From NCBI GenBank assembly GCA_905160935.1, contig CAJHZI010000195.1, positions 233,501 through 297,500 on the forward strand: a DNA stretch of 64,000 nucleotides, given 5' to 3'. Within the stretch, counting starts at the first letter, position 1. Every line of letters begins with the position of its first letter. The DNA is from Enchytraeus crypticus. Its lineage: Eukaryota; Annelida; Clitellata; Enchytraeida; Enchytraeidae. Position numbers and translations under genes: made by a program. The notes beneath the pieces were generated by a model. That model did not search any database and had not been told where the DNA came from. It saw only the letters and a program-made list of their open reading frames with translations. Below are positions 1,095 to 59,749 of the stretch, in pieces.

Positions 1095-1290
1095 GCATCA
1101 TCGTCATCTTCCCTTGGATCTCAGTTTATTGCTAGGGTCGTATTTTAGAAAATTTTGTCTCAATTTCTGAAGCCTAGGAGCTCATTAACCGAATGCTGTA
1201 TCTGAACTTGGTTTGGATCTTATAATACTATAGTTCTTAGTACGTTGTCACCTTTTACGACACGTGCAGTCTATCGTACACCAGCAGAAA
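1095..1290 (-). mobile_element. SINE-IV, diverged minus copy
   Basis: Reversed tail (CATCATCGTCATCTTCCC), middle (GAAGCCTAGGAGCTCATTAA) and head (ACGACACGTGCAGTCTATCG). Confidence 0.6.
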
Positions 1291-2796: not shown

Positions 2797-2960
2797 CTCT
2801 CTCTCTCTCTCTCTCTCAGTGCACTGCCTACTGGCTGGTACGTCCATGGCATATAACGCCTCCACTCATCTCTGTCTTCTGTTTTCCTCTTCATATTAAC
2901 ATAAAAGTGGATTTTTAAATCATCCATCCATTATTCTTACCATTATTCTTGGGGGAATCT
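2797..2960 (-). mobile_element. LINE-B 3' end with (AG)n tail
   Basis: Plus strand shows (CT)n, then AGTGCACTGCCTACTGGC and the remnant down to CTTGGGGGAATCTGCTTATG. Reverse complement of the copies at 42.5 and 43.0 kb. Confidence 0.75.
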
Positions 2961-3129
2961 GCTTATGACGAGATGGTGCTCTATGATTTACCAGCTTTTA
3001 TAAATCTGACTCAATATTTCCAGCCATTTTTAATATAGGCTACTATACAACATAGTGATCATTTATAAAGTATTCACCAATTTAAAAATCAATCACAATG
3101 CAGTATAATTGTTCTAATTATGACATAGC

Positions 3130-4204: not shown

Positions 4205-4513
4205 GTTCTTATTGAGGCAATACTTCTCCCGCGTTGTGTCCCGGTTGCTTGAAGAATTGACCAACCGGTGACTGCACGTGTCGTAGAAGGCGACTAAAGC
4301 ACTAAGATCCATACCAACGTCAGAAAGGGCTTTCGGTTGGTGAGCGCCTAGGCTCCAGAAATTGCTACAAAAATTTAAACGAATGGAAAAGTCTCAAATA
4401 GGAGATTGGCTGGTGGTGTGGTGTAATAGAGAGAGGATTTGAGACACTCTATTCGTACCCCGACCCTAGTTAAACTGGGATTCAAGGGAGGATGATGATG
4501 ACGACGATGATAG
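4205..4513 (+). mobile_element. SINE-IV, full-length copy
   Basis: Head GCGTTGTGTCCCGGTTGCTT, GTGTCGTAGAAGGCGACTAA, middle AGGGCTTTCGGTTGGTGAGC, then a 3' tail (GACCCTAGTTAAACTGGG plus (GAT)n) shared with LINE-A. The head has no clear tRNA B box; its origin is not recognised. Confidence 0.8.
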
Positions 4514-5004: not shown

Positions 5005-8000
5005 CTAGAGCAGAAAACAAACAGCTTATCGACTATGTCACAGAAAGAAAGCTCAACTATATATATATAATATATGTAAATTATTATTAATATATTGACT
5101 GATGATATGGTGTGGTACAGGGAGGACTGGGGAAAGTCTATTCGCATCCCGACCCTGGTTAAACTGGGATTTAAGGGAAGATGATGATGATGATATTATT
5201 ATTACATACTATAAATTATATAAGAGAAATAAACAGCTGATCAGCCATATTGTAATATGGTATAAAATCCGGATTGTTTGAAGAATAGACCAAACTGTGA
5301 CTGAAAGTGTCGTAGAAGGCGACTAAAGCATTAAGATCCAAACCAACGTCGGAAAGGGCATTTGGTTGATGGGCGCCTAGGCTCCAGAGATTGCTACTAA
5401 ATTAAATTTTATAAAACGAATGGAAGAGATTATAGGGGATTGACTGATAATAATAATAATAATAATAATAATATAATAACACGCATTATAGCGAAATGAT
5501 CAACTATGTTGATATCTATCACTTTTAATACCACATGTTTAAACCGTTAGGCAATTTATTCCATTTTCCGTATAACCAGTCCAGAGAATGTCCGAGATTT
5601 TACTCTCAGATCAGCGCGGCTGAGATTCGAACCCACGAGAGTTCGATTCATCTCAGGATCAGTCATTTAAAACTTCATGACGTTATCTACACCCTGAACC
5701 ATTGCACTATTGAGACATTCTATCGTTATCTTATATCGTTATATATTATTATTTATAATTATTATTATTATATCGTTATGATGATATGATATAAGACAGA
5801 GAGGAGTGGAGAAGATCTATTCGTATCCAAATCCTAGTTAAACTGGGATTAAACATAACATAACATAACGGCACACTGGGTCAGGAAGCACAGATGCTTG
5901 TTTAAGACCCATTTCCTCCTTCCTCTCCATGGTTATTAGTAATCGTTGCCTTTGATGGCGCATCAATTGCAGCCGGCGCGGATTTAAGAATAACCTTCCA
6001 ACACCTTGGAATTTTTTCCTTCCTAAGCTTTTACCAACACTCGGTCTTCCAAGGTGGTCACCCACAAAGTACTAACCGAGGTCGATGCAGCTTAACTTCG
6101 ATAATTGACGCGCAACTAAACCAAGTGCGCTAATCCCGCCGTCTAAAATCTAGGATTAATTAATCCTAGATTAACTGGGATGATGATGATGATGATTAAA
6201 GATAAAACATTAAGTGGGCATAATACAATAGGACAGTAAGGATAATAAGCCTCCAAGGGCTCAATAAATCCAGCCTTGTAGACTGTGTCGAGTAGAACAT
6301 GATCTTACTAATTGAATGATGAACCGGACATCCGCTTCTACAATACATTTTCTTGAAATCTACGATCATATCCTTCATATCATCATCTGTCACGGTTCCT
6401 TTGATAGACAGCTGCGAGGCAAACAGGTACAGACATGCTAAACCAGATAAGAATTGTTAAACAAAGAATCATGCAGAGAATCATAAAAAGAGGTAATTGT
6501 GAAAAGAGGTAATCATACAAAGAGGTAGTCATACATAGAGGTAGTCATGCAAAGACGTAGTCATACAAAGAGGGAGTCATACATAGAGGTAGTCATGCAG
6601 AGAGGTAGTCATACATAGAGGTAGTCATACATAGAGGTAGTCATGCAAAGAGGTAGTCATATAAAGAGGTAATCATACAAAGAGGTAATCATACAAAGAG
6701 GTAATCATACAAAGAGGTAATCATACAAAGAAGTACACCATACAGAGAGGTAACCATACAGAGAGGTAATCAAACAAAGAGGTAATCATACAAAGAGGTA
6801 GTCATACAAAGAGGTAATCATACAAAGAGGTAGTCATGCAAAGAGGTAGTCATGCAAAGAGGTAGTCATGCAGAGAGGTAGTCATACATAGAGGTAGTCA
6901 TGCAAAGAGGTAGTCATGCAAAGAGGTAACCATACAAAGAGATACTCACTCATACAAAGAGATAATCATACAAAGAGGTAACCATACAAAGAGGTAGTCA
7001 TACAAAGAGGTAATCATACAAAGAGGTAATCATACAAAGCGGTAATCATACAAAGCGGTAATCATACAAAGAGGTAACCATACAAAGAGGTAACCATACA
7101 AAGAGGTAGTCATACAAAGAGGTAGTCATACAAAGGGGTAGTCATACAAAGAGGTATCATACAAAGAGGTATTCATACAAATGGAAACTCACTCATACAA
7201 AGAGATAATCATACAAAGAGGTTATCATACAAAGAGGTAGTCATACAAAGTGGTAATCATACAACGAGGTAACCATACAAAGAGGTAATCATACAAAGAG
7301 GTAATCATACAAAGAGGTAACCAAACAAAGAGGTAGTAATACAAAGAGGTAACTATACAAAGAGGTAATCATACAAAGCAGTAACCATACATAGGGGTAA
7401 CCATACAAAGAGGTAATCATACAACGAACAATCTTATAAAAAATAAATCATAGTAAAAAATGTACCTAAAATCTTGTAGTAAAAATCTAATCGTAGAAGG
7501 AATTACATGAAAAAAGAATCATACTACAAAGAGAGAATTATTCCAAAAGAAGGCCGAGTAGAGATTCATATAAAAAAGGAAAAAACAGATACAAGATTAT
7601 AATAAGACAGAATCTTTGAAAGAGAAACTCACCAGAGCATATTATCATATAATAGAAAGAAGAATGAGAAAAATTAAATAAAAGGAGAGAATCATATTGG
7701 TATAATAGCTTCGTTAATAAACGATAGTGTTTTGGCCTTGTGATGCTTATTATTTGAGTACTTCATTGTATATTGCTTGTTTCACTGTAATTTCTGTAAC
7801 TTTAGTACAAAAAATAAAGTCCAGCAACCCATGTTGCATCCGGGTTGTTGAAGAATGAACCAGCCGTAGACTTTATGTGTTGTAAAAGGCGACAAAGAAC
7901 TAAGATGCAAATCAACGTCAGAAAGAGCACTCAGTTGAAGAGATCCTAGGCTCCAAAAATTCCTACATTTTCTGATTACGACCCTATTTAAACTTGGATT

Positions 8001-8372
8001 CAAGAGAAGATGATGATGATGCCGTTGTTTAGAGATGCTTTTTCATGGTATACTCTCTTACACATTAATGCTTAATAGAGTTCGTCATACCAATGCATCT
8101 CTATGAAAGAATCGTGCAGAGATAATCATGAAAGAGTACAGCATAATTCAAGAGTACAACTAGCCAACGCTGAACAATGAAACTTTTATCTTTAAAAACC
8201 TTAACAACGTCATTATGAAAGTAAAGAAAAACTTAGCCTCTCTCTTTTCTCTCTCTTAGTGCACTGCCTACTGGCAGGTCCATGGCATATAATGCCTCTG
8301 CTCTTCTCTGTCTTCCGCTTTCCACTTCATGTCCACATATGAGTGGATATGTAAATCGTCTAACATTCCTAA

Positions 8373-11700: not shown

Positions 11701-14700
11701 ATCAATTAATTACTTAAGTCCATTCATACATTGATCAATCCATTAATCAGTAAATCAATCAATCATCATCATCATCTTCCTATAAATCCCAGTTTAATCA
11801 GGGTTGGGATACAAATAGACTTTCTCCAGTCCTCTCTGTCCCACACCCTATCATCAGTCAATCCCCTATTTTTCATGCCCTTCTTAATTACCGCATTCCA
11901 AGTCAATTGTGGTCCAACCTCTCTCTAGCTTAACATACAGTTCTTCCCTTCAAACTCCCTTTACTGCATCCTCATCTGCCTTTCTCACAATATGCCCATA
12001 CCATCTCAATCTCGACTGAGCCAACCTATCCCCGATCCCCTCAACATTCAAATTCGACGGCGGGATTAGCACACTTGGTTTAGTTGCGTGTCTATTATCG
12101 AAGTTAAGCTGCATCGGCCTCGATTAATACTTTGTGGGTAACCACCTTGGAAGACCGAGTGTTTGTAAAAGCTTAGGAAGGAAAAAATCCCAGGGTGATG
12201 GAAGGTTATTCTTAAATCCGCACCGGCTGCAATTGATGCGCCATCAAAAGGCAACGATTACTAATAACCATGGAGAGGAAAGAGGAAATGGGTCTTAAAC
12301 AAGCATCTGTGCTTCCTGACCCAGTGTGCCATTATGTTAAATTCATCCTCACATATTCATTTTCCATTCTATCCTTCCTAGTTCTTCCACACATTAGACG
12401 CAACATTCTCATTTCTGGCAAATGCAAGCTCTGCAAATGTTCCCTTTTTAGTGCCCAACATTCCGAACCATACATCATTACTGGCCTTACCACAGAGCTA
12501 TAAAATTTGCCTTTCAGTCTTAGTGGGATTCTCCTATCACAAAATACTCCAATGGCAGCCCTCCACTTTGCCCATCCAGCCTGAATCCTACTAGTAACCT
12601 CCATTTCAACTCCCCATTATCCTCTATTACAGATCCCAAATACTTAAAATCTGTTACCTTCTTTAGCTTCACACCCTGACTAGTAAATCAATCAATCAAA
12701 ATCAATTAATCAATCTATCAATTAATTAATGTATCAGTCATATATATGAATAATATATCCAACACCTAATCAATCAATTAATTAATCGATAAGTAAATCA
12801 ATCACATAATGCAAACTTAATGTCCATTCTCCTTTACAATAAAGTCAAAAGTGATATTACGATATCAAGAGATATATCAGAAATGATATCAAGAGATATA
12901 TCAGAAAATGCTACAAAAACAATACAAAACAATACTTGAGAAAGAAAATTACGAAGACACTGCCAAACTCTTGCTGGGTTTTCCAACTGACTCATTTTTA
13001 CACACCATTGCAGTTACTGGTAACGACTTCTATGATTTGTTGATTTGTAACAACTTGTTCTTAATGGTTTCTAATAGCTTTTACGTCAAGCAGTTTCGAT
13101 AAATGGTTAAGTGACTAGATAATATTTTGTTTTTTAATGTAAACTTTTATGTATGCATAACCGCAGAGATTGACTATTGTGAAGTAACTAAAAACAACAA
13201 TTGGCAACAAACATTATTCTTATTCCCAATATTATAAAGGAAAGCTATCAGCCACTTCGCACGACATCGGCGTAGAAAGTTACTTTTGCAGTTTATGAAG
13301 GAATGTTTGCCCGTTATCTCAGCTGCTTTCAGCTACAATAACAGGGGGAGATATCTTCTGAGATTCGGGCGGTTATCTACGCGTATGAATAAAACAAGGT
13401 TATCCCTAGGCCGCTGAGATTCCTATGGCCCAGGCGGCTCTAGAAAATAGCAGAGAGTAAAATCCCTCAAATGTTTAGAATTCTTGGAAATGACGTTACA
13501 GATTCGAGTTAAAGTTGAGAATAGAAAGCTTTATAAAATGCAAAAAGCAGGTTTTGCTTTATCTCTCGGATAAAATCAAATTCTATCAATTGATATTGGT
13601 GAGAATATCTTTCCGTTTATAAGATTGCGTAAGTCTGTCTATATGATGAACTTGAGATAAGGTAACTTGAAGAAGGAAGGATATGAAGTTTGTATGAATA
13701 ATCATATTAATAGGTGCATAGAATAATATATAATATATGCCTCTCTAGTGCTCTGTCAAGTGGCAGGTTTAAAGTATATATTCCCACTCATACGCCGCTT
13801 TCACACTCCTTAAATAGCACTCCATCGATTAACGAGCTAATCCTTCACAAAAGGCTTATATACACTTTGCAAAAGCCTATATAATTTGAGAATAATATGA
13901 CTTCTGAGATGACTTCCCATTGTCTTCCTCAGTTTTCACTCAATCGGTTTGTGTTATTATATCTCATGCCCTCTTGAAATGTGAACATAAAGCGTAAAGA
14001 ACAAAACTGGAACTTCCTACCTTGATATCACCGAGAATGACTTTACATCGCAGAAGGAATGAGAGTCCGTCAGAGTGAGCAGCATATTTGCAGCACTTCG
14101 TTGGATTATCACTGCAAATGAAAATATTTAAAAAAAACCTGGGAGTTAAAAATAAAATTATTCCATTAGTAAAAACTAAAACTTTTCTACATTGAAAATT
14201 TAGATAAAGTTGATTTGTTACAGAAAAGGAAATATGGCTTCAATGAATCACAATGCAGCCATATATAGAGTTCAATTTGAAAATTATTCAAATAAACAAG
14301 GATTTAAAGAAAGTAAAAACAAGTCAGGACAACCAAAGTATTCAAGAAAAGATCATAAAAGACAATATATATAATTATTTAATACTTAGTACAACAAATG
14401 ACACAAAATAAATATTGGTATACCAACAAAAACTGTAGATTATAATTATTACACTTAATTTTAGATAATGTTGATCAATCATAAAAGTGTAGCAGAATAG
14501 TGCCAATTAAATGTGAAAATCACATCATACTTTACTTATTTTAACTACAAAATTATTATGAAATGTTTAAACCTAAAGTAGATGCCTTTGCCAAATCTGC
14601 CTTTCCTGGCTAGTCTGGCATCAAGTCCCTCATCACAGAGCGTTTCCACTGAAGCGCTCGTTCCATGATAGAGACTGCGAATGTTCATCTGAAAATCTTC

Positions 14701-16989: not shown

Positions 16990-17265
16990 TCCTAGTGTTG
17001 CATCCGGGCCACTGAAGAATAGACCAACTGCAAACTGAACTGAGAAAAACTGAAGAAGGCAAAGGGAAACCATCTCAGAGGTCATATTTTTCCAAAGTTA
17101 CAGGCTACATTAGGGTGTGGGTAGAGCATAGCCTATTGAGAAGGAATTAACTCATTAATTAATGCAGTGCTCTTTATGAAAGCATAAAGCGTCACTGTGA
17201 ATATAAATATGTAACTAGGACCTACCACTTAGCAAAAGACTAGAGAAAGAGACTCCTAAACACAA
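16990..17265 (+). mobile_element. SINE-V (SINE-IV head, LINE-B-like tail)
   Basis: Head TGTTGCATCCGGGCCACTGA, AATAGACCAACTGC; body AAACCATCTCAGAGG; tail GGACCTACCACTTAGC with GAGAAAGAG. Head matches SINE-IV, tail matches LINE-B instead of LINE-A. Confidence 0.7.
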
Positions 17266-18556: not shown

Positions 18557-18856
18557 TTATGGCTGGATTTAGCGCACTAGGTTTAGTTGCGCGTTATCGA
18601 TCGAAGTTAAGCTATATCGGCCTCGGTTGGTACATGGTTAGTTTTTACCGCCTTAGAAAATTTAATGTTGGCAGCTTTGAATTAAAAAAATCCCAGGGTG
18701 TTGAAAGGTCATTCTTAAATCTGCGCCGGATGCAATTGATGCGCCATCAAAAGGCAAAGACTACTAATAACCATGGAAAGGAAGGCGAAAATCATGAAGA
18801 GGAAGGAGAATATTGGTCTTAAACAAGCATCTGTGCTTCCTGACCCAGTGTGCCGT
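18557..18856 (+). mobile_element. SINE3: 5S rRNA-derived SINE
   Basis: Full-length but diverged: head with CGAAGTTAAGC and CCTCGGTTGGTAC, body with CAATTGATGCGCCATCAAAA, 3' end CCCAGTGTGCCGTTAT. Confidence 0.85.
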
Positions 18857-19559
18857 TATTTAACAGAAATTAAGTAAGGATGCTATACAGCACCTGCGTT
18901 GTGTATTGGTAACCACTAACCACACGAACTGAACCGCTACAATTCGGAAATTTTTACGGGGGTGGGGGAAATGGTTAAGTCCTACTTGGTAGGCAAAATA
19001 TGTGTAAAGTTAACATGCTAAAAAAAGGCTACGAAAAATCATACGAAAAAATATTTTATTGCTATTGAACTTCAAAGTCATTACTATAAGTCAATACTTA
19101 ATTTTCATTGATACTTACCTACTTCAGGAGTTTACGAATGTACGAAGTTAGTAACGCAATAAATATAATGTATTCTCTTTAAATCAAAACTCAATTTTTA
19201 TATTAAGCAAATATTATATTATATTATATAAACAAAGTAATTAAATGGTGAAAGTAAAAGTAAACCCATCGAACTATAAATAGCACAAGAAAGACCAGTA
19301 ATAAGATCTCCATTGTAAATTCCCCGAAAAAGTGTGACGATTCATTGTCAACAACAACAACAATTAGAGTGCTACAGTCATCAATGGCAACATCGAGCAC
19401 TATTGAGACAAAAATCAAGCCGGCGAGCAAAAATAAGGTCCAAAAACGGTGCAAATTCCAAAATCCGGAAATTCAGTCCAAAGTCAATGTTGAACCTTAG
19501 GGTAATGATTGACAGTTATGTGACGTCTGGAGACATTGTCTCATCTCGAGACGGTCTTG

Positions 19560-19757: not shown

Positions 19758-20270
19758 ATCTCTATCTCTCTCTCTCTCTTAGTGCACTGCCTACTGGCAG
19801 AACGATGGTATATAGGCTAACGCCTCCACTCTGCTCTGTCTACTCTTCCGCTGTACTCTTCATGTCCACATATGAGTGGGTCTTTACATCATCTAAAATA
19901 GTTAAACGTACTTACCTAATCTCGACCTGCCTCTTCCTCTGTTTCCTTCCATTCTACCTTCTATGCCCGTTTTTAATAGACTTCCCCCCCCCTTAGAATG
20001 TGTCCTCTCCAACTCTTCTTCCTATTTCTTACCACATTTATCAACTGTCTATCTGGACTAACCCTATCCAGAACTTCCTCTTTTGTAACCTTTATTAATT
20101 TTAAGTGCATCGAATCCTCTCCATTCTTTTCCAAATCCACCTCCCTAAGGTCCATGTTTCACACCCATACAATAGCGTGGCCCAAACCAAGGTTTTCACT
20201 ATCTTTCTGTCATTCTTTAGACTTTTTGTTAAAAGTTATTTTATATTAGCGAAGGCCACTCTTACACATC
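19758..20270 (-). mobile_element. LINE-B 3' part
   Basis: Minus strand encodes DLREVDLEKNGEDSM, TKEEVLDRVSPDRQL and RNRKKSWRGHILRG, then the LINE-B 3' end (ACCTGCCAGTAGGCAGTGCA type) and an (AG)n tail. Frames are broken. Confidence 0.8.
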
Positions 20271-20356: not shown

Positions 20357-20513
20357 AGGCCTTTCATAATTAATAGGCTATGTAGTGGCAGCTGTGCAGA
20401 GATTATAAACAAGTCAGGTGGGCAGTGGTGGGGGCGTGGGGAGGGGTGTGTGACGGCAGGCAATGTTTAATACATATGCATATACCTATTAGGTATTTCT
20501 TCATTTATTTATT

Positions 20514-20755
20514 TAGAATGTCTAAATAGCGTAGGGGTAACGTCATGAAGTTTTAAATGACAAATCCTGAGGTGATTTGAATCCTCGTGGGTTCGAATCC
20601 CGGCCGCGCTGATCTGAGAGTAAAATCTCGGACATTCACTGGACTGGTTATACGGAAAATGGTCTAAATTGCCTAACGGATTAAACATATGGTTTTAAAA
20701 GTGATAGATATCAACATAGTTGATTATTAACTATAATGCGTGTTTACTTTACTGT
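20514..20755 (+). mobile_element. SINE-II
   Basis: TAGCGTAGGGG, box B GGTTCGAATCC, AAAATCTCGGACATTCACTG and the AACATAGTTGAT 3' block. Confidence 0.85.
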
Positions 20756-24629: not shown

Positions 24630-25035
24630 AAATTTGTTTGCATTTTGCATTATAAAATATACTTCCAATTAATAGGAATTAGTTTAAAATATTTATTGGA
24701 TAGATGTGATAATAAATGTGCTACTAAATTCTTTAATTATCATTCAAAGTTTTGCAAATGTTCAAAAACTTCATTATTTTACGCCTTTAAATAACGATCA
24801 GCTGATATTGTTTACCTCCGGCTAGCAAAATTAGTTGTTGGCATCACTGCAATTCTTGAACTCAATGTTTACAATGGTTGAGATTGCCTTTGACACTTCT
24901 ACGGTTTTTCTTTGTTCTATGGCTATACATATGCTATACTACATGTGCTGCAGGATTTCCTAGTTAAAGTAATTGTTGTTGTTGTTGTAGTTTTCGATAT
25001 TTCCTACTTCCGATCTCTTATGGTTATAAGTAGGC

Positions 25036-25255
25036 CTAATCGTACTTTTAGATGGTGTACAGATGGCAACCGGTGCAGATTTAAAAGTAACCTTCCAAAA
25101 TCCTACAGAGGTTATTTTTCATTCAGCGCTGCCAATTAGCCTACTCTCGGTCTTCCACGGTGGCTATCAATCCATGTACTAACCGACCCAGAAGTAGCTT
25201 AACGTCTTTAATTTGACGCGAGCTAAACCAAGTACGATAAATCCCGCTCCAAAGT
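25036..25255 (-). mobile_element. SINE3, 3'-truncated copy
   Basis: Minus strand keeps the 5S-like head (GACGTTAAGCTACTTCTGGG, GGTTAGTACATGG) and part of the body, but the terminal CCCAGTGTGCC block is absent. Confidence 0.7.
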
Positions 25256-25689: not shown

Positions 25690-26050
25690 CTCTCTCTTCC
25701 ATTCTGTCTCTTTCTCTCTTAGTGCCTCCTGGAAGATCCATTGTACTGACTACTGGAAGTTCCAATGTATTTAACGCCTACACTATTCTCTGTCTTACGT
25801 TTTCCTCTTCACGTCCACATACGAGTGGATCTTTAAATCATCTCTCTCTCTCTTAGTGCACTGCCTACTGGCAGGTCCATTGTATATTAAGCCTCCACTC
25901 TTCTCTGTCTTCCGCTTTCCTCTTCATTTCCACACATGTATGGGTCTTTAAATCAACTAAAATACCTAATCTCGGCCTGACTCCGCCTCCATTTCCTTTC
26001 ATTCTGCCTTCTATGAACTCCTTTAATAGACTTTCCCACCTTAATGTCTG
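25690..26050 (-). mobile_element. LINE-B 3' ends, two copies nested or in tandem
   Basis: Two minus-strand copies of the LINE-B 3' end (about 25713-25840 and 25853-26050) each start with an (AG)n tail and the CAGTGCACTAAGAGAG-type terminus, then DLKIHSYV-MKRKAEDRE-like coding remnants. Confidence 0.75.
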
Positions 26051-27226: not shown

Positions 27227-30200
27227 GTCAGTTTAGTTTATAAATGTTACAAAAATAAATAATAAAATAAATAATAATAATAATAATAAATATAGTAATA
27301 AATAATAAAAAATAAATAATGATGATAATGAAAATAGAATAAATAATAATAAATAAATAACATACAAGACGTAAAATTTGCAATCTTGATAACACGATTG
27401 GAGATCATGTTGGCTGGAGCCAGTGGCACTGTCGGTAAGGTACTCAACCGCGAATCAGTATGTGCGGGGTTCAAATCCTGGGCTCGCCCGTCACTCGCTT
27501 TCGAGTGAGAAAACTGACGTTAACATTAGCTTTGCCAGCTTTATCATATGTTTGTAAAAATAAAAGCTAGTTTTGTTAAAAGCTGGTAGAGCTAATGTTA
27601 ACGTCAGTTTCCTCACTCGAAAGAGAAAGTTAACGAGCTTTATTTCTAAATATTGATTGATCAATAGTTTGACAACTGCATAACTATATGTATCGAGCTT
27701 CCTTTAGAGTTTGCTTCAGTATCTTGAAGGATACCGTCAGAAACTATCACTGTCAGGCATTGCATCCAGCTTCTAAGACAAGCTTTTTAGTCGTTCTTTC
27801 AAGAATAAGTAGACCTACATGTATATAATGACGAAAACAAACTTCAGGTTTAGCATAATTTTATTAATATGCTAGCACTTAATTCTCATCTAATACATTT
27901 AGATTAAATTTTTGAACTTTAAATTTTTAAATTTAAATTTAAAAAATTTAAATTTTTAAATTTTATAACTCTTTTACAATATTATATCTACGATCTTTCA
28001 AATGAGAGCAAAACTGCTGACGATTTACTGATGTCCAATAAATGTGTCAAACTCGTTGCACAATGAGGTGAATATTTAGCAAAATTTATATAGTAAATTT
28101 AAAGTAGGCAAATGAATAACTCATCAGTATCATCATCATCATCTTCCCTTGAATCCCAGTTTAACTAAAAAGTTTATATCAATTTCTGAAGCCAAGGCTC
28201 TCACCAACCGAATGCCATGTCAGACGTTAGTTTGGATCTTGGTTCTTTGTCGACTTTTACATCACGTCCAGTCCACGGTTGGTCTATTCTTCAGCAACCC
28301 ATACATGAGACGGGTAAGATAAGCGAAAACATAAATAAAAATATTTGTATTTAATAAATAGAAGTTGCTTAATGCAGCTTATCTGATCCCTACCCTAGTT
28401 AAACTGGGATCAAGGAGATGATGATGATGGTGACGATGATGATGATAATGATGGGGATGGTGGTGGTGTTAATGGTGGTGATGATCGTGATGACGATGTC
28501 ATGATGAAATAGAAGTTGTCTAATTCAGATTATCGTCGGATTAATTGTTCCTCTTTTGATCTTCGCCACGTTCAACACGCTCCTCTACGTTAGACTATCC
28601 CGACTAAAGCGTCCCGGAGCAATCCCACTGTCCTACCGGAGTCACGTGTCCCAGAGACTTCGTCGACGATCATTCGCCTCCTCCGTCCTGTTGTTGAGGA
28701 CAGGCTCAAGGTCCATAGGAGGGGAGGGGGAGGACGCGTCGATCATTCGACAGATGGAGACACATCTCGCCATAGCTCGCCGTCAGGTGAGAATGATGAG
28801 GCAATTGATCATCATGGTTGTAGTATTTACAGGTAAGTAATTCTTTCTTTGAGCTAACAATTAATCGAATTTAATTCGTTTTTAATTCATTCATTAACTT
28901 AATTAATTCAACCAATTCAGAGTTTAATAGATTGATGTGTGTGTGTGTGTATATATATATATATACTGTATATATATATATATATATAATTCTTATTGAT
29001 TGATTGATTGATTGATTTGTAAATTACATATATATATAGTATATATATATATACTGTATATATATATATATATAATTCTTATTGATTGATTGATTGAATT
29101 GTAAATTAAATTGGAGAACTTGTCTATCAAGCGTATGGTTAGATGAACAAGATTGTAGATCAATAAATTAAAAGTACAGTCACTCAATCGTATTTTAAGA
29201 GATGAATTAACGTTAATGTAATCACAGAAAGTTTCACATTTAATTGATTTATTTAAATTAATTCAATTAATTAATGAAAATGAAAATTACATTATTTATT
29301 TGCAATATTTGAATCCATCGATGGTAGTTTCAATTAATTCATACAGTTTACCATCTATACAATCAATGTGAGTTTAATTCAATACTAGTTTAGATGTTTT
29401 CTTCAAAGGATGACGATATTACCATTAAATGTAATGTTTAGAAATGCTTAGCTATAAAACAATTGAACTCATTTGTATTTGTTTTGTTCTTATAAAACTG
29501 ATGGATACTATTAGCTAGTGGCTGATCATATACTCTATACAAAAGCAAATACTGCATAAGAATAAACATCGAATATAAGAATATGGTTGAAGATACAAGA
29601 GCCTTATTCAAAGCATTACTGCACTTAAAAGCTTTGACAGCCATCTATCAGTGTCTGACAGTAAACCTTGCAATTTTCATTTCGTCTTCCAGCCTCTGAA
29701 GGAATTTTCGTAAGAAATTGATGTATGGGACACAAAATCATAATATTATATAGAAAAATTATCTACTGTTATTTTTAGATGGAGTGAGAAAGTGTGTGAC
29801 GACTAGCGCTTGTGCGATACTAGAATTGCCTACATTTTCATTATGAAAATGTGTGCGTAATGAAATTATTCTGTATTTTATACTATGTCAAGTTACTCTA
29901 CAGAAGTGGAAATAACTCGCGATATCGCGTCATCAACCGCAATATTTTTCTAATAACAATTGATTATTAACATTTATGTTTAAATATTTAATGTTTTAAA
30001 TTATCAAATAAGAGCAAGCAATGCCAATTCAAAAAGTTAGAGATCAATCTAAGCTGTAAATAAAAGGATCCATAGAAAAGAAAATACAAAACAAGTTAAA
30101 GCAGAATTTAAGAATATAGCCCGGAAATAAAGTACTCTAAGAAAAATAGATTTATTTTTGTGATCGAAATAAAAGTGAAATAAAGAATATAGAGTGAACA

Positions 30201-30626: not shown

Positions 30627-33600
30627 TCCTTTCTTTCTTTCTCTCTCTCTCTCTCTCTCACCGTCATATTATTTATTTCTGTGATTTCCAATCTCTGTCT
30701 AAGTCTTTATCATTTACTTTAATATTCTGAAAATGTTAAGTTCAAATCGCTCATTCCTATTCACATTCAGCGTACCCTCTCACTAGTGAGCTTAAACATA
30801 GCTTGATAGCTATATATAATTAAGTAGGCCAATACGTTTCTCTAATTCGATAAGTAGATAGTACGATTTAAGAATTCTTAAATCGTACTATCTATTTTCG
30901 ACTGCGTAATCTGTTTGGTAGAATTGACGTCCTAAATTCGGGATCATGAGGACATACTATGTGAAAATGTTAATTGAAACGTTTATGTAAAGTGCTATTT
31001 TGAAACCATTTTGTATACATTGATATGAAATAATCTTCATCTCTTTATCTTTTGGTAATTTTCATTAGTAAAGCCATTAATGTCTATGCTACTCTAGCCG
31101 AATTCTTCAGCTTCATGGCCTATGATTTTAAAATGTAATTATAGAGGAAAATATAAAGCATCAAGACTAGCTGATAATTTCTTAACAAAATATATGTTAA
31201 CAAACGATCCATTAACTAAGCTTACACTTTCGAAGCTATACTTGTCTGATGGTCACTGTTCAACGGCCTATAATATTATTTGTATATTAATTTATTTCAA
31301 CTCTGCGAGCTACCGTTGACTTGACGACTCATTTATCTTTCATGAATTCTCGCATTCAGACAATTAGCAGAACGATTCCCTAATGACACCGGTTCCATTC
31401 AATGCCGGGTGATCCGACAAATTGTTTCCTCTTGATAAGATTCTTTCCTGTATGTTATTCGACGTTTTATTGGGGCATTCGGTTGATGAGAGCCCTAGCT
31501 CCAGATATTGCTACAATAATTTAAACGAATGGAAAAGTCTCAAATAGGGGATTTACTGACGATATGATGTAGGACTGAGAGGAATTGAGACAGTCTATTC
31601 TATCTCGACCCTAGTTAAACTGGGATTCAAGGAAGATGATGATGATGATGATGGTATTAGACTTGAACGACTCGGCATTCAACCCGCGATAGTAACAAAC
31701 GAGTTGATACTGTGTGACACAGCCTGTTGCACAGGTGCTGCGTTAAGTAGAACATTCAGGACAGCACCTGCGCGACGTCTTTAACGTAAAATTGAGACTT
31801 TTATGAGACGTCCCGTCTTTTCTCCATCAAAAAATCTTTAAACTAAAACATCTGACCTTTCGTCATGTAATCAGATTTCATTGTTCGTCGAGAGTTCGCC
31901 ACTGGTAACTCATTTATTCCCAGCACGTCGAACTCAAATTTCTGAACAGATGTAAGTGACTCGAATAAGGTTTCATAAAACTGCCGTATCCGTCGAAAGA
32001 AGAGAATATTGTGTTGTAAACCAATTCTTACGATGCTTATAGCTAACTAGATCTTGTCCTATAAGCTACCGAATGGGTCAACAGTTTACAGCGCTTATCG
32101 TAAGTGCCGACTAAGCTGAAACTGAAGAAGCTGAGGAAAACTTCGCTGGAAGATATATAATTCTGTTCGCTAGATCTAGGCTGCATTAAGAATTAGTGGT
32201 CTAGGGTACATTAAGAGTTGTTGTCTAGGATACATTAAGGGTTAGTGATCTAAGCTACATTAAGGGTTAGTGGTCTAGGCTACACTAAGAGTTGTTGTCT
32301 AGGCTACATTAAGGGTTGTGGTCTAGGGTGCATTAAGGGCTATTGGTCTAGGCTACATTAAGAGTTGTTGTCTAGGCTACATTAAGGGCTAGTGGTCTAA
32401 GCTACATTAAGGGTTAGTGGTCTAGGGTACATTAAGGGTTAGTGGTCTAGGCTACATTAAGAGTTGTGATCTAGACTACATTAAGGGTTAGTGGTCTAGG
32501 CTACATTAAGGGTTAATGGTCTAGACTACATTAAGGGTTAGTGGTCTAGGCTACATTAAGGGTTAGTGGTCTAGGCTACATTAAGGGTTGTGGTCTAGGG
32601 TGCATTAAGGGTTGTGGTCTAGGGTACATTAAGAGTTAGTTGTCTAGGCTACATTAAGGGTTAGCGGAGAAGTAGGCTCTATCTGTTGTGATTTGATCAG
32701 TGTTGGTAAAATATGTGCAGTTGCCTTTATGGAAAGTATAAAAGAAGAAATTGTGCAAAAATAGGTTCCTTAGATTTGCTATATTCAGTATGTATTTTTG
32801 AAAGATGGATATTTGAGTAATTTATTGGCAATAGTAACTTTAAGCATACTCAAGGATTACACTTGCGTGGTAGAAAGTGTCTTCACATACTGAAAAAACA
32901 TTTAAATATAGGCCTAATAATTGCAAAATAGCCCCATCTTTATCTATTATCTCTTCAAAAAATATTCGTTTTGGAAGAAATTTAGAGAAATAAAAACAGT
33001 AAAAGTAATTAAAACTTACAGAACTACATATACTGGAATTATTTGAAGAATGGTGGATATCTCGCTTTATCCTGACATATGTTTTCTGTGATGGTTTACA
33101 GTTTGTCATCTGCCCTACCACGTAGTGGAAGTGTTGTCTCTGAGAACAGAACTCTACTACAAGTTGACTGGGGAAGTCCCTTCCAGAGCTCTGGCTATCA
33201 GGTTCATCTACGTCAACGTGGTCGTACAGATACTCGTCTTCATATCCAGCTGCTGCAACCCGATCATCTACGGAATCTGTAACAGAAACTTTCGTAGGTA
33301 GAAGTTGTTGCATAAGTTTATTAATAATACAATTAGGCTATTAATTATTATAATTTATTGCGATTTTACAGCAATCTTACTTGCTATATTTTGTTTTAGA
33401 TGTACGATAAGTCAAAAAGGGGATTGGTTTCTGAAAGACAGCTGTTAGTTAGCTGTAATTATAGTATCCTGAATTCCTTTTTGCTTTGTCCAAGGCACTA
33501 ACCGAAAATTGCAAGGGTTGCAAGATAGAGAGCTCTTTATGGAGCTTGAAAGCAGAATGTAAGTAGAATTGTGCACCTTGACCCTGCGACTTGACTGAGA

Positions 33601-36075: not shown

Positions 36076-36079
36076 TTTA

Positions 36080-36837: not shown

Positions 36838-36927
36838 TTGTATGCAGAGACGAAGCAGAAAATAGAGGATAGACTTCATTGGAAGATATATGTCATGGAT
36901 CTGCCTTTATGCACTGGAGAGAGAGAG

Positions 36928-41745: not shown

Positions 41746-43273
41746 TCATCATCATCATCATCATCATTATCTTCTTCTTCTTCTTCTTCCTTGAATCCCA
41801 GTTTAACTAGAGTCGGGATACGAATAGACTGTCTTAAATCCCTTCTGTCCTACATCATATCATCCATCAGTCAATCCCCTATAAAATAAAATAAATAACA
41901 TAAATTAGTTATACAATAATAACTAATGAAATATTAATTACATATCTTCGTTTACTTCAAAACAATCTGACACTCAAAATTTAATTAAAAAGAAATCATA
42001 AATTAAGTACACTATAATTATTATCAAATAATAATTCTAAATATTTAAGCACAATTTCTAAATAAATAAAGAAATAAATAAATAAATATGTTTATTATTA
42101 ACTATTAAAGTAGTTAATATATTAGTTTTATAATTCAAAACCGGTTGGTTGGTCGAATGGATATCACGCTTGCCTGTTAAGCAGGGGGACAAAGATTCTT
42201 ACTCCAGTCGGACTGTTTCAGACATTATCCTATGTGAAAGAAAAACTGACGCTAAACTAGGCCTTATGGCATCTTTTAAAAATTACGTAAACGGTAATTT
42301 TTACGAAGAAATTAAACCTAAATATATTGAAAGGATGCCGAGATAGTGTCTCATAAAAAGTCTGATATAAAATTTATAGATTATAGAAAATAATTACTTC
42401 AAAACGTTTATATAATAATAGTTATTTGATGGGTAAACAAAATGATTGTTTTCTCAGGGAACGACGCCCCTGCCCAGTAAATGTTATTCAAAGCTGAGGA
42501 AAGTATAGGGGGCCCACCTCGTCATAAGCAGAATCCACCCAAGATTAATGGTATATCATGTTAGATGATTTAAAGATCCACTCATATGTAGACATGAAGA
42601 GGAAAACAGAAGACAGAGAAGAGTGGAGGAGTTATGTACCATGGACCTGCCAGTAAGCAGTGCACTGAGAGAGAGAATAGTTATTTTATATTCACAATTT
42701 GCCTACAAACTCTAATTCCAATTCTACAACCTCTCTCGCAGATGAATGGCAGCAGCGTGTTGCAGGATGTGTACTCCACTTTGTAGTCCCTCAGGAATGA
42801 ACAATCCCTGTCCTTCTTCTGCCACTCGGTGTACACCCAGACTCTCCAGGACACGGCATAGTTGAACTGGAACTGAGACACGAGTGATCCCAGCATCGTC
42901 TCTCTGCCGTATTCGTTACGAGCCCAGGCGAGTCTAGCTCTGTTCACCTGTCGACACAATCCAGCCAAGTGTGTGGAAACAGATGGAGAAAATAGCATGA
43001 AAAATAGTATGGGAAATATATTAAACTAGCTGAGGAAGGCATTGGGGGCCCACCTCGTCATAAGCAGAAGCCCCCAAGAATAATGGTATATCAAAAGGAA
43101 TGTTATAGATGATTTAAAGATACACTCGTATGAGGACGTGAAGAGGAAAACGGAAGATAGAGAATAGTGGAGATACCACTATATTTAGTGGCATCTCAAT
43201 ATACTTTATTTATTTACGTTATATACCATGGACCTGCCAGTACGCAATGCACTAAGAGAGAGAGAGATTTCTT

Positions 43274-49300: not shown

Positions 49301-52300
49301 GATCACGGCCACGAATACCCACCTTCAAGATGCATTGGCTCGCCGTGCGTGTTATATACGATCACGTTATTGGTGATGTTAGAGTAGAGCGATACTTCGT
49401 TGTCCTTCGTCGTTGTGTTAACAGATATACCGCCAGCACATCTCACTATATAATTATTCGCAATCGTCATCATTCGGGTGTTTTGTATGTACACGTCGAC
49501 AACACCCGGGAACGTATTGTTAAGAACCCGCCAACCACAGTTCTCGATGTAGTTGCTTTCAAAGTTCAGCCGGATGTTGTTTTCTCCAACGTTCTGGAAA
49601 AAGAATCCTCCGCCGATGTTGTTCGTGATGAGGTTGTTGGTGATTTTGTGTGAGTTGCCCGGACCTAATCAATTAGTCACGTTCAATATCAATAATAGAA
49701 ATCAATCGATAAAGTCAATCAATAATGGAAATCAATCGATAGCAGTCAGTTAATTAAAGAATATGCTAAGAAACAGAAAGAAGAACTGGATAGAACATGT
49801 TCTAAGAGTGGATTATTTGCTTAAGAAAGAATGAAGGGGTAGCGAGATAGAAGAAGACCGAGACTTGGCATGATTTGATAAATTATTTGTAAGTGGAAAT
49901 TGAAAAGAAAGGCAGAGGATGGAAATACTGGGCGGAGTTGGATGCCATGATCCTGTCGCTAGGCAGTAAGTACACTAACATATAAATCAGTCGGTTGATA
50001 AATAACATTTCAATTAATATAAGCTAATTCTCTGCAGCTGCCGAACTTAGTTTATATCTATTTGGCCGAGTGTTAGTTAGTTAGCACTCTCTGTGGTATA
50101 ATGCATCATAAAGATGATATAAATCCGACAAGCAATCAATTACTTAATAAATGCAACTCTTAAACTATCCTTCAGTCAATAACAACATTTTAGAAATTCA
50201 GAGAAAAGGGAAAACATCAATCCTCTAGTCAGGCATAGAAAGATACTAAATTAACTAGCATTAACTGATACTAATATTACATTAATATTACAGAAATTAA
50301 TACTGATATTATATTAGTTAATACATTATTAATTCACCAAAAGGCAGTATACGAAACAACAAACGCGTTTGAATCACTATAAAAATAGGAAGAGACGTTT
50401 TACTTAGTTTAAACTTTATTAATGTATCAAATATTGCAAAAAATTATAGTCAAAAAATTATAATAAATCAGAGTCATATTAATAAATTAGTAATCATATA
50501 AATAAATACTATCTATAACATTAAACAGCAGTCATAATATGATGATAGTCATATACAAGTAAACGGGTAGTTATATTAAATAAAAGTCATAATAATAAAT
50601 GACATAATAAAAGTCATAATAATAAAAGATAATCATTTAAAATTATAGTTATATTAAATACTAACATAACTATACTTGTATAATATTAAGTGAAAGGCAT
50701 AACAATAAATGACATAGTTAAACGTTATATTAAGTAAAAGTCATATTAATAAATGGCAATCATAATAATACATGAAAATCATATAAAGGAGAATCATCAT
50801 CAGCTTCCCTTGAATCCCAGTTTAACTAGGCTGAAGATTAGGCTTTGTAAGTTAAATTTGTTAGTAATTTCTGGAGTTTTGGCTTTCATAAACCGAATGC
50901 CCTTTCTGACGTTGTTATGGATCTTAAGTGTTTGTCATACTTTGCAAAAACGTGCAGCAGAGTTTATAGTTATATTAAATAAAAGTCCTAATAATGAATG
51001 ACAATCAAAATAATAAATCATATAGATCATTGGAATAAATATATTATATCAAGATTTATATGGCCTCCTTGGTTACATGTCGCGAAATGAACTGACCCAG
51101 AAACGAAGATTGATCTAGGTCAGGTCACTTGCTTCCTATTGGTTGAAATTTTGGGGTTCGCAATGGTCATATAAGTCAAAACAATGGCAAATTTCGACTA
51201 ACCATAGTCAGGTCGCCAGATGGGGGAGAGAGGGAGAGTCACCACCTCGGCTATGAAACCGTAGTTACCAAACGCCGGCGACCCGGTCACCCTGATTCCC
51301 ATGGTGTCGTAGTAGGTCGACGTCTTGTAGAGCATCTTCGTGTCCATCAGTGTGCTGTTAATCGTTATCTTACCGATCAACATCTGCGGGTCAAAGTACT
51401 CGCCGTTGTACATCTCAACCGTGTTCTCAAACTTTGTGTCGTTGTAGAGCTGCATCTGAAAAAGTAGGTCAAGGTAAAAATGTAGGTCAAATCAGGTCAG
51501 GGTAAAAAGGTAGGTCAAATCAGTATATGAATCATATTATTATCTTACTTTTTATTCGTCTAGTTCAGTGGTTCCTATCCTGTTTAACTCTAACAACCCA
51601 CAAGATTTTTTGCTTTCAGGTGCAACCCCCGAATTTCTTTAGTACTTTGATGCTATACTTTGTTAATGTATTTTGTGCACTTTGCTAGTTTTTGGATTAC
51701 TTTGCCGTACGTAGTAAGATACACGAATATTAATATAAATATTCGTTGACGTTTTTACAGCACAACATAATGCCAGGTAGTGAACTCTCTGATTTGGTCG
51801 TCCAGGGACTCATCGATAGGTCGCAAGCCACGGGTTGGGAACCGCTGCTCTAGTTAGGCCCTACATGACAAAATGCATGTGATTACAGACGTTTCTGACT
51901 TATTTGAAGTTTTTGTAGTTTTTGCTATGTCCCCATATCCACCATGATTATTACTAGCGGCGGTTTTGTAAGAGCGCCGGTTGCAGCTAGAGCAGATATA
52001 AGAATAATCTGCAACATCCCGGAGTTTTTATTCGAAGCTATCGGCAGCAGTATTAAAAGGAGTTCGTTAAGAGTTAAAGTTAAATTTGTCCAACCAAATA
52101 CTAACCGATTTCAACGTTACCTAACTTCACCACACTCTACCAAATCAATGCTCTAAACACAGCCCCAATCTTTTTCTTAATATTTGAATCAATGCGTCGA
52201 TGGTGCATTGATCTTGAAAGGAGGCCATCAGTTAGAACATGTACCAGATACCAGTACCAGTTCCTGGGCTTGTCCGTCACTGATATCGCTTTCGAGTGAG

Positions 52301-55300
52301 GAACCTGACGTTAACCTTAGCTTTACCAGCTTTTACCATGTACCTGCCAAACCACTAAAGAGTGAAAGATAAAAAGAGCAGTAGCTAACTAACCTGAAGG
52401 AATCTTATTCCAACCACTTTCCTCGGTTCTTTACTACGAATGACCTTGATGCAGTCGATCGTCTCGAAGTCGTACTTGTAGTAGAGCAGCAGTCGATCAA
52501 CCACAAACACCAACTTCTCCGTGGTGCACATTCTGATCAGTCCCAGCACGTCGTAGGGTACGCCATTGTCTATCAGGGGCACGAAGAGTGACTGCGGCAG
52601 GTCAGAGGAGGCCCCGCTAAGGACCATCACGCTCACGGCGTATCCATTGTTATTCTGAATCTCGTTATTTCTCACCAGAAATCGATCCATCGGCGCTATA
52701 AAGTCGTAACCGTGGGCGTCGCAGTTATGGATTCGAACGGATTCGAATTCCGGGACTCGGTAGACGGATTGGACGGCTGCTACGCGGTCGTCGTGCAGGA
52801 TTCCCGCTCCGTAGATATCCGCGTAGTAGACGGCGGAAAATCCCGGAGTGATCGCGCCGAATTCGGCAGTGGTCGTAGAAAACCTGATGTTACCCCAGTA
52901 GTCGTATTCCTCAGGGAGATTCCTCGCCCCGCACCGAATGAAGACGTAGAGACGGTTGAGCATGTCCTCATAAAGGTTGTAGTTTATACGATGTCGACAC
53001 TGATTCAGCGTCGGTTCACTACCGTCGCAGATGAGATTTTCCCGCCAGAACCATTCGATCACCTGTTCGTGCATCTTGGGATATCCCAGAACGAAGATGT
53101 CGTAGTAGGCGTTGGTGGTTACGATGACGTTGGTGTATTCTTTGCCCATTGTCCTGCACGCCGCCTCGGCCGTTCTTTCGTTGAAAGATCTGTCGCAGAC
53201 TATCGACCACTGCTGCTCCGTGGTATTGTAAATCTCCAGGAACCCTTCGTCGGCATCCTTTCCGCCAACCAACTGAAGTTGATATCCGAGACTTGGATCG
53301 ACATCGGGATGAGAAATCACTCCAGATTTCGGAGCAGTGGCAGCGATTCTCCGCACACGGCTGAACGCCAGTTCGGTTAAATCAGTAGTGTCTCTCTTAA
53401 CGCGCTGAGTTTCGTACTGAGATTTGGGAATGGGTCCCAACTTTACTCGATTATCAGGCTCACCGTTGATAACGAAAGAGCCAAGGACTAGGATGCCAAT
53501 GCTGGGGTAAAACTGGATTTCAACTCCGGCGTCGATGATCAGAGATACGCCGTCCATGACTGTTAGATCCCTCGACACGATGTACGGTGTGGAGCGTTTA
53601 GTTAACTGCAGATTCTCTGTAATTCTCCCTCCGATCGGTAGATTTAGATCAAGAATCGGTATGAACTTCTGCCCGACAAAGACTCGAGAGTTGAAATTAT
53701 CGTTCAGCAGATAGGGAAAATATTCCGCTATCGCAAAATTATTCCAGTCGTCGAAATCGAATATTTTTCTACGTATCTGCTGCTGATCCACAGTGCCCCA
53801 GTAGTTTTCCGTTACATCGAGGTAGTTTTCCAGAAGAGAAGAAGTCTGACCTCCCAGCAGTTCAAAATCCAGCGAATTCGAGAAGAGATTGCGATTGATC
53901 GTCATATTCTGAAGACCTCGGACGCCCAGAGTGTAGGATGTGGGTCTGCTGATGGGAATTCTTTCGGTGGAATTCAACGGAGGAGGCTTTTGATTTCTCT
54001 TCAGAAGATTGTAGGAGAAGGTGGCGTCCACCCAGCGAGTGTAGGGCGTGTGGCTGTTCATGTGGAACAAGACGATGTACGCTCCGATGTTCTCGGTGAA
54101 CTCGTTGTTCTGCATCTCAAACTCCTTCTCTGTTCCCGATATTGTCACACATCCAAGCTGCAACGATGAACAAACGATCATCATTTATTGTACAGTTTTG
54201 CGGTAAGCAAGCGGACAAATATTGCGTTTTGATATTGATTATTTTGTAAAAACTACGAAAGATACGGCTCCTAACCTTTCAACATACATGATTGCGTCCA
54301 GGACACTGAATAATTGATCAACTGTAAGCTACATGAGTCGTAAGAGGCGAACAGACAAGAACGGAGGAAGGCAAATAGAAACCACCTCAGAAGCCCTATT
54401 TTTCCCAAGCTAAAGGCTCAATACAGGAATATATAATGTAAAACCATTTGTGAAGAGATAATGCTTTCATACTGATAAAATTTGTCTGCTATTTTAAGGC
54501 TGATGATTTACTCAGCACAGAGTAAAGCACAATGTGAGTATATGTACCTAGAACCTACCACTTAGCAGAACACTACAAAGAGCGAGAATGAGATACCTTA
54601 CAACGGTTTCCCTGCCACCGATTATTAGCGATACTAGCGTTGCAGTAGAAGCCGTCGATTCTGAAGACGAAGTTGTCGTTATCTTGAAATACGGTCTGAT
54701 TGAAGTTCACACTGTGGTTATACAGTTCCGTATACATCATGTTGACTCGAGGCAGTTCTATAGTAAACCCTCCTTCCTTGTTCCGCTCAAATACGTTACC
54801 GGAAACCTAAAGAAATTGTCAGAAATATTGTCATATTTTAACGTCCCATTCCTCGTCATAGGATGATGTCACGGACGTTAATTTTGTTATTTTTGGCTGG
54901 AGACAGTGGTGATGTCGGTAAGGATCAGTATGTGCGAGGTTCAAATCCAACTCGCCCGTCACTGGCATCGCTTTCGAATGAGGAAACTGACGTTAACATT
55001 AGCTTTACTTATATAAATTCACGTCGGGTTAAAGACAAAGTAAATTACACAGGTGCATTGACCCGCTCATAAGAACATAAGCATGTATTGGCAGGAAACT
55101 GCGAACACACGGGGCTCATATAGTGGTACATACAGTGTAGCATTATCACTACACAACACCCTGTAATAGACAGTGAATGACACATACCGTGAAAAAATAG
55201 AATAGAATAGAAACTATTAATAGAAAGCAAGAATAGAAATAATGTCACATACACAATATCCCATACTGTGATAGATAGCATGTGATTATTACATACTGAC

Positions 55301-57148: not shown

Positions 57149-59749
57149 GTTCCATTACTAAAATAATCTTAATGTAGTACATGAGCATTTAAAAAAAGTT
57201 TATGTACTATTTCTAGATCTACCTGGTAACACTCTGCGAGCTGATGGCTTCAAACTGATTTCTCAGAAACTGTACGCCGTAGAGGGAAACAGTTTCCCAT
57301 CGAAACCTCTGGAAGAGATCTAGGAACTCATTAGAGGGTTGATTGTAGTGCTCTGTTACCATGCCGCGCATGTTGCCCTCTATCGTACTGTTCTTCACCG
57401 ACACCAAGCCAAACGGCCATCGCCAGTCCCAGGCCTCTGCATCACAAGAAACAACAACAACAACATAAATAGAGACGCTACTTCAAAAGTCAGTCGTTCA
57501 CTCGACTGGAGCCAGTGGCGCTGTCGGTAAGATACTCGACCGCGGATCAGTATGTGCGGGGTTCAAATCCTGGGCTCTCCCGTCACTGACATCGCTTTCG
57601 AGTGAGGAAACTGACGTTAACCTTAGCTTTTTAGCTTTACTTAGCGTTACTGGGTCCGTGTTGCGTCCGGGTTGCTAAAGAATAGACCAATCGTAGACTG
57701 CAAGTGTCGCAAGAGGCGACAAAACACTAAGATCCAAACCAACGTCAGAAAGGGCATTCGGTTGGTGAGCGCCTACGCTCCAGAAGTATTTAAAAAAATT
57801 CTACAACGAATTGAAAAGTTTCTCACAACACAGAGAGGAGTGGAGAAGGTCTATTCGTATCCGATCCTAGCTGAACTGAGATTCGGGGGAAGATGAACAT
57901 GTCCTGCCTTGACACCATCCTTTTAAACTTTACATGCACATGTATATAGCAATCCAGTAGATATTCTATTTTTCCAGTTGTACTTTTAATAGTTGCTATT
58001 ATTTCACAATTTTGCACATTTCAAGATAATTGTAAGTAATAATTAATAGTCAGACTGGTGTCGGATAAAAGTTTGTATCAAACAGAGCTCGCATCACTTG
58101 TAGCTTGAGGTAACAGATACAGTTTATATCAGCTACAGCTGGAATCATACAAAGCGGCTTAAATGATGATTTATCGTCTAATTTTCATGTATGAATGTGG
58201 AATGTCAATTAGTGTGGAGGTTAATTCCAGATTCTGGAACTTGCTAGAGAAACTGACATACTTGATCTGAGCACGAAGCAGAGCCGGCCTGAAGCCACAC
58301 CAGAGACGGTCCAGCGTAGAGTCATATAGCTCAGCTGTGAAACCACTGGAAAATCAGGTAAGTCCTCATCCACAGTCCACCTCAGGGTAGAGGGCGTGAT
58401 TGTCGTGTTGCGACTGTCGTACACAATAAATCTCTCCACGTCCGTCAGTGGACTGTAGTCAATGACATCCACCACCACCTTATAGAGAGTGTCCACCTGT
58501 GTCAATCAATCGATATGTATCGATATGATAATCAATCGATATGTATCGATATAATAATCAATCGATATGTATCAATATGATAATCAATCGATATGTATCA
58601 ATATGATAATCAATCGATATGCATCAATATGATAATCAATCGATATCTATAAATATGATAATCAATCGATACGTATTAATATGATAATCAATCGATACGT
58701 ATCAATGCGATAATAAATCTATATGCATCAATGCGATAATAAATCTATATGTATCAATATGATAATCATTCTATATGTATCAATATTATCGATATGATCA
58801 AGGTATAGTAGCGAAGTGGGTTTACAGAAAATTGTGGATGGCCTGAACATTACTGCATTAAAGTATCGAACTAAAATTAATATAAAGAAAACCAAAGTGA
58901 TGAGGGTGTCTAGAAAAGGACGAAAAGCCAATATAGAAATGTTTAGGTCTTCCTTTAGGCTATTTCCGATCCATTCTTCCTTTAATTACCATTTTTAGTA
59001 AACCATTCCTCTCAGTACATGACCCATCCAGTTCTTCTTTCTATTCCTTATGATATTTATAAATTGTCTATTTATACCAACTCTATTTAGTACTTCTTCG
59101 TTCGTAATTTAGTCAGTCCACTTGATCTTCTCCATTCTTCTCCATAACCACATTTCACATGCCTTTAGATGTCTAATATCTTCCTTTCTTAACGTCCATG
59201 TATCACAACCGTACAGTAGCGTGATCCACACTAAAGTCTTTACAATCTTTATCTTCGTGGGTTGCTTTAATTAGAATGTCTTGATAGCGTAGGGGTAACG
59301 TCATGAAATTTTAAATGACAGATCCGGAGGTGAATTGAACCCTCCTGGGTTCGAATCCTAGCCGCGCTGATCTGAGAGTAAAATCTCGGACATTCACTGG
59401 ACTGGTTACACGGAAAATGGAATAAATTGCATAACGGTTTAAACATGCGGTATTAAGAAGTGATAGATATCAACATAGTTGATCATTTCACTATAATGCG
59501 TGTTTACTTTTTGCTTAAGCCCTTTTATTAGCAGTTCTTCTAATTTGCATTTAAATTTTATTTTATTTATTGTTTACTTCTCAAGCTCTATCTATAACGC
59601 TGTCTTGAAGACCGCTTTCGACTAAGATAACGCTACACAAGTTTTCTCTATCAACAGTCCTATTCAAACAGAATCAGCCAAGATCTACAGAGATACCATT
59701 TTCTCTTATCGTGTGTCCTAAATATCTGAAACTCTTTACCTGTTCCAAA

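Follow-up and report, generated by a model that had tools for sequence, protein, structure and literature searches.

Many short interspersed elements (SINEs) end in a 3′ sequence equal to that of a partner LINE, whose enzyme recognises it (PMC3747384), and both modules and tails of SINEs are exchanged (PMC6887750). A closely comparable case is that of the HaSE1, HaSE2 and HaSE3 families of Helicoverpa armigera, described in PMC3272025, in which two families have a common 5′ part and a different 3′ part, a third has the same body and tail with another head, and one tail derives from an RTE LINE whose short 3′ UTR terminates in TGA repeats. Template switching has been proposed there for HaSE2 and HaSE3 (PMC3272025). 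Table 1 of PMC3747384 lists the CORE-SINEs, in which one conserved block occurs with L2, L3 and RTE tails, and the Nin-DC-SINEs of Nematostella, in which one block occurs with an L2 and two CR1 tails; the promoter in both groups is given as tRNA-derived. The same table lists Bov-A2, MAR4 and RTESINE1, which combine a LINE-type tail with a non-tRNA head ("5′-end of RTE"). Persaeus and other SIDEs, as presented in PMC6740152, are short, have no pol III promoter, and have a LINE ORF end and 3′ end at their 3′ side.

SINE-IV and SINE-V are old families of short parasitic DNA in the genome of Enchytraeus crypticus, which we analysed in one 64-kb window (the whole stretch of DNA under study) with 3-8 copies per family. 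The core observation, confirmed here at the level of sequence, is that one head is joined to two LINE-type tails. Mixing and matching of one block with several LINE tails is already described in HaSE1-3, CORE- and Nin-DC-SINEs; what is unusual here is a head without a tRNA-type promoter. The head of HaSE1 and HaSE2 is a tRNA with A and B boxes, whereas no pol III head was found in SINE-IV or SINE-V, and the HaSE2 3′ part is mariner-like (PMC3272025), whereas both tails described here are of LINE type. Persaeus takes both of its ends from a single LINE (PMC6740152), whereas the present families use two kinds of tail and have a head whose derivation from a LINE is hypothetical. Unlike the heads of Bov-A2, MAR4 and RTESINE1, the SINE-IV/SINE-V head was seen on no LINE in the window. 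The window as a whole contains many repeats and has the look of an animal nuclear genome, with a rhodopsin-type GPCR exon (26606-27262, plus strand) and SRCR and beta-helix frames (52385-54184 and 59828-60514, minus strand). It also holds three large tandem arrays: that at 6479-7424 has 58.6 copies of a 16-nt unit, that at 32175-32664 has 19.9 copies of a 25-nt unit, and that at 22718-23768 is degenerate and rich in CTGTCTCT.

The head common to SINE-IV and SINE-V is approximately 62 nt long and has the motif TGTTGCATCCGGG..GGCGAC. When the two head consensuses were compared without gaps, 52 of 62 positions were identical, with a score of 220 against a top score of 92 among 5000 dinucleotide shuffles (0/5000 as good). 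For all our shuffle tests, consensuses were drawn up by eye from 3-8 decayed copies; two profile tests of the head are independent of them. With a profile built only from the four SINE-V copies, five SINE-IV heads in the window scored 18.6-32.7 bits and one further SINE-IV head, a partial one, scored 5.4 bits, against a best score of 5.5 bits in shuffled windows (n=30). Conversely, a profile of five SINE-IV heads matched all three head-bearing SINE-V copies at 22.4-26.2 bits, against a shuffled best of 9.9 (n=30). The shared head claimed by the original prediction is thus well supported, and the six copies it named (4205, 7828 and 57645 for SINE-IV; 16990, 54283 and 62305 for SINE-V) are present where it had placed them. 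The motifs it quoted are also present, but as composites that are not letter-perfect in each copy. AGTGTCGTAGAAGGCGAC matches exactly only at 5306, with two mismatches at 62345, and the block is absent from the 16990 copy; AGCAGAACACTA matches exactly only at 54564, GGACCTACCA at 17218 and 62533, and CCCTAGTTAAACTGGG at 4464, 28393 and 31609.

In SINE-IV the head is followed by a body of approximately 80 nt, unlike that of SINE-V, and then by the LINE-A 3′ end. Self-comparison and profile searches of the window yielded five copies beyond the three named earlier, and tails of two lengths are seen. Long tails of approximately 105 nt are found on the plus strand at 4230..4503 (LINE-A tail from ~4396), 31473..31656 (a copy without the head), 57657..57899 (long type with an internal gap) and 5266..5447 (truncated inside the tail). 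Short tails of approximately 40 nt are found at 7831..8020 on the plus strand and, on the minus strand, at 28131..28308, 1096..1273 (head partly missing) and 50793..50958 (most of the head gone). In the self-comparison, the copies at 4230 (E 4e-18) and 31473 (E 1e-25) matched positions 11762-11871 of a LINE-A remnant, which bears out the earlier claim that SINE-IV ends in the LINE-A terminus. This remnant (11762..12700, minus strand) comprises pieces of an ORF2 C-terminus and a 3′ end with (GAT)n. Since its ORF2-like protein frame runs into the (GAT)n, the SINE-IV tail contains former LINE coding sequence. We presume LINE-A to be of the RTE clade from a resemblance of what are C-terminal pieces only and from the (GAT)n end; none of three LINE-A pieces (0/3) matched any Pfam family. 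The remnant is split by a copy (12053-12339) of a further dispersed family, which is 94% identical to the copy at 5861-6146 and has others at 18561-18859 and 24999-25247. At 46006-47165 on the plus strand lie two overlapping frames with no Pfam family, which look like a C-terminal segment from a retroelement protein.

LINE-B is represented by remnants at 19759..20206 and 25842..26040 (both minus strand), each with an ORF2-like frame 5′ of its 3′ end. At 25842 the frame reads ..MKRKAEDREEWRLNIQWTCQ-stop and is followed by GCAGTGCACTAAGAGAG, and the arrangement at 19759 is similar. LINE-A and LINE-B are therefore LINE 3′ ends, as the ORF2-like C-terminal remnants upstream of them indicate; neither was seen with a complete ORF2 in the window. 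Two LINE-B 3′ ends stand in tandem at 25706-25974 on the minus strand, with a period of 115 nt. The LINE-B-only profile also matched divergent relatives on the plus strand at 36836-36932 (26.1 bits), 38937-39022 (18.7 bits) and 49868-49980 (20.7 bits), and since their terminal sequences differ, this suggests that LINE-B is part of a varied old lineage. Hairpins form in several LINE copies, one in LINE-B (CUGCC-AGUA-GGCAG) and another in LINE-A. A conserved tail hairpin as recognition signal was rejected, as folding z-scores lay between -0.61 and +0.62 relative to shuffles and the hairpin is absent from the SINE-V copies.

The SINE-V copy at 16998..17251 (plus strand) has a head at ~16996-17040, a middle at ~17037-17118 and a LINE-B-type tail at ~17205-17251, with ACTCCTA at both ends. 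The copy at 54291..54592 (plus strand) likewise contains head, middle and tail, with a weak flanking repeat (ACCTTWCAAC); that at 62312..62583 (plus strand) has a head eroded at its 5′ end, and a fourth, at 13736..13952 (minus strand), is without the head. SINE-V-like fragments lie at 32071-32193 and 33524-33599 on the plus strand. With the GAGAG run excluded, 26 of 35 ungapped positions are identical between the SINE-V tail and the LINE-B consensus, a match equalled by 1 of 5000 shuffles, and the tail occupies a constant position in all four copies. The SINE-V-only profile matched all eight LINE-B seeds, with scores of 7.7-20.1 bits and E-values from 4e-6 to 0.02, on one strand and at one place in the profile. 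The LINE-B copy at 25842-25706, a ninth, is not among the matches listed. In the reverse test, the LINE-B-only profile matched two of four SINE-V copies at 9.8 and 7.7 bits, barely above the shuffled best of 7.2. Profiles iterated on the window tie the families more strongly, but were left out of the evidence because the profiles of the families absorb each other's copies. These results agree with the earlier claim that the SINE-V tail resembles the LINE-B terminus. LINE-B itself as the partner is less secure: since 9 of the 35 positions differ, the helper of SINE-V may be an older LINE-B or a LINE-B relative.

The two tails are not related to one another. No match was found between the SINE-V and LINE-A tails (4234 of 5000 shuffles equal or better) or between the LINE-B and LINE-A tails (4937 of 5000), so that the modular tail exchange of the original prediction stands insofar as one head sits on two unrelated LINE-type ends; the swap, though, appears to be wider than the tail, the SINE-V middle being SINE-III-like. 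This middle, CTGAGGAAGGCAAAGGGAAACCACCTC, is similar to the first part of SINE-III, which combines a middle module with a LINE-B tail and has copies at 42491..42680 and 43028..43267 (plus strand, the latter with an insertion in the tail) and at 2804..2985 (minus strand). One of 2000 shuffles was as good as this resemblance, for consensuses picked after inspection. In profile searches of the window alone and without a shuffled-window control, the top non-self match of the SINE-V middle was SINE-III, albeit weak (9.3 bits, E 0.06), followed by an unrelated match at 12136 (6.8 bits); the top two non-self matches of the SINE-III profile, also without that control, were SINE-V copies (6.9 bits, E 0.26, and 4.5 bits). 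When single copies were tested against the four SINE-V copies, 1-20 of 300 shuffles were as good for the SINE-III stretches at 42440 and 42960; the stretch at 2775 gave no support for kinship (27-282 of 300), its middle having no match to SINE-V. Homology between the SINE-V and SINE-IV middles was considered and is unsupported (326 of 2000 shuffles as good; 19 of 300 for the best among 24 single-copy pairs). Since the SINE-V middle is like that of SINE-III and unlike that of SINE-IV, the junction is likely to lie directly after the head. Most simply, SINE-V would be a SINE-IV-type head on a SINE-III/LINE-B-type remainder, and the swap probably involved everything 3′ of the head.

Relative ages were estimated from K2P distances to leave-one-out consensuses, averaged over the copies of each set. 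The distance was 0.45 for SINE-V (n=4), a value that is noisy and inflated because of the four copies, 0.18 for the SINE-IV body (n=7), 0.21 for the LINE-A tails including those of SINE-IV (n=7), and 0.11 for the LINE-B/SINE-III tails (n=8). SINE-V thus looks the oldest of these families, which may explain the distance of its tail from LINE-B.

The designation of SINE-IV and SINE-V as a SINE lineage fits their LINE-shared tails, but the pol III head that it implies was not found. Neither head consensus contains a pol III B box: the best plus-strand matches had four mismatches, a result equalled by 889 and 866 of 1000 shuffles, and those on the minus strand had three to four. Two families in the same window served as positive controls. 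FamI, an element of ~146 nt with a consensus B box GGTTCAAATCC and an A-box-like block (plus-strand copies at 27405-27545, 36075-36220, 57500-57642, 54885-55012, 21880-22035 and 2455-2575), has one mismatch (4 of 1000 shuffles as good) and is probably a tRNA-type SINE. FamM, of ~250 nt and 84-93% identity among copies (5455-5725, 20500-20755, 35830-36080, 59260-59515 and 61697-61970), has a perfect B box GGTTCGAATCC (0 of 1000) on the strand opposite to the orientation of the 5455 copy on the plus strand, and is probably a younger tRNA-type SINE. An A-box-like match in SINE-IV (one mismatch) is not diagnostic, with 321 of 1000 shuffles as good. Rfam gave nothing at gathering score in the whole window, and a single copy of each family gave best chance matches at E 1.1 and E 2. 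A tRNA or other small-RNA head is accordingly rejected by the B-box test with its same-window controls and by Rfam. A SINE in the strict sense would have a head from tRNA, 7SL or 5S RNA with pol III boxes, which was not found in these families, and a LINE-shared 3′ tail, which both have (LINE-A in SINE-IV, LINE-B-type in SINE-V). A SIDE, as an internally deleted LINE, would take its 5′ end from the 5′ UTR of its partner LINE, have no pol III promoter, and finish with the last part of a LINE ORF and the LINE 3′ terminus. The last two features are what is found, clearly so in SINE-IV, while in SINE-V the tail spans only the last ~50 nt. As a class name, "SINE" is thus putative for both families and unproven. 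Pattern scans of viral contigs and genome contigs for head, middle and LINE-A tail gave two stretches only, both from viral contigs, of which the one examined (80 nt before, 60 nt after) was without the rest of the head and was taken as chance. Fragments of these elements were also sought in the text of the literature, and none was found.

Target-site duplications, a further mark of a strict SINE, were sought as flanking repeats, and these were convincing in two of the seven copies tested. At 4230 the repeat is 14 nt long with two mismatches; 1 of 300 random placements did as well, and the 5′ flank there is itself an 18-nt tandem repeat. At 16998, ACTCCTA encloses the entire unit (5 of 300). 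For the remaining five copies, 93, 122, 277, 282 and 300 of 300 placements were as good. Given these two flanking repeats and the lack of a B box, the start of the head may be a genuine 5′ terminus at which no pol III promoter can be recognised.

A head of this kind brings the SIDEs to mind. In that case the head would derive from a LINE 5′ end, SINE-IV would be a LINE with an internal deletion, and SINE-V would be a hybrid joining the 5′ end of one LINE to the 3′ end of another. We consider this possible, though not probable: the head differs from the two control families in having no B box, Rfam gives no small-RNA homologue, the tail contains a LINE ORF end, and both 5′-end-of-RTE heads (PMC3747384, Table 1) and SIDEs without a pol III promoter, including R2/R1 hybrids (PMC6740152), have been mentioned; yet no LINE in the window begins with the head, the window containing no LINE 5′ end for comparison. 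It is rather unlikely that SINE-IV and SINE-V are tRNA-type SINEs of the ordinary sort, with a tRNA head absent or degraded in the copies at hand and the shared block as a conserved central domain. In favour of this are the shortness of the block, its retention of GTCG..CGAC in several copies, and the frequency of shared central domains with different tails in the accounts of PMC6887750 and PMC3272025. Several copies, however, share a start point, two of them beside a flanking repeat, as expected of a true 5′ end, and when the 130 nt preceding each of seven copies were scanned, the only B-box-like match (one mismatch, upstream of the copy at 57656) lay inside a neighbouring FamI repeat. The shared block may also resemble a block of molluscan SINEs. 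That the likeness of tails is due to chance or simple repeats, or that the units are accidental neighbours, is very improbable, for although GAGAG is a low-complexity run and the LINE-B-only profile matches SINE-V weakly, the match holds without that run, the tail keeps its place in every SINE-V copy, and a flanking repeat surrounds the entire unit at 16998.

SINE-IV and SINE-V are thus, with good probability, non-autonomous retroposons built of interchangeable modules, with tails that would suit the enzymes of two LINEs and a switch between them that would have come by template jump. The sequences directly show the identities of the modules, junctions that recur in independent copies, LINE coding sequence within the SINE-IV tail and flanking repeats at two of seven tested copies; the action of the LINE enzymes in trans, the jump and its direction are inferred. 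In the simplest view, the reverse transcriptases of two distinct LINEs would each recognise one of the 3′ ends and would act on it in trans. The most likely route of exchange would be a jump from one RNA template to another, just past the head, in the course of target-primed reverse transcription. Since SINE-V looks older, the LINE-B-type tail was perhaps acquired first and the LINE-A tail later, and one head with two LINE-type ends would imply two partner LINEs over time. A bolder proposal, which we regard as unlikely and offer speculatively, is that a 5′ module without pol III boxes heads short retroposons of at least two LINE machineries, with SINE-III also exchanging modules, and that the promoter in this head is of LINE or pol II type and does not come from a small-RNA gene.

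These families add a case of short retroposons that switch LINE partners, with relative ages from divergence. They raise the question of how such elements are transcribed without a recognisable pol III head, and the long and short LINE-A tails found side by side could show the minimal 3′ sequence that the LINE enzyme needs.
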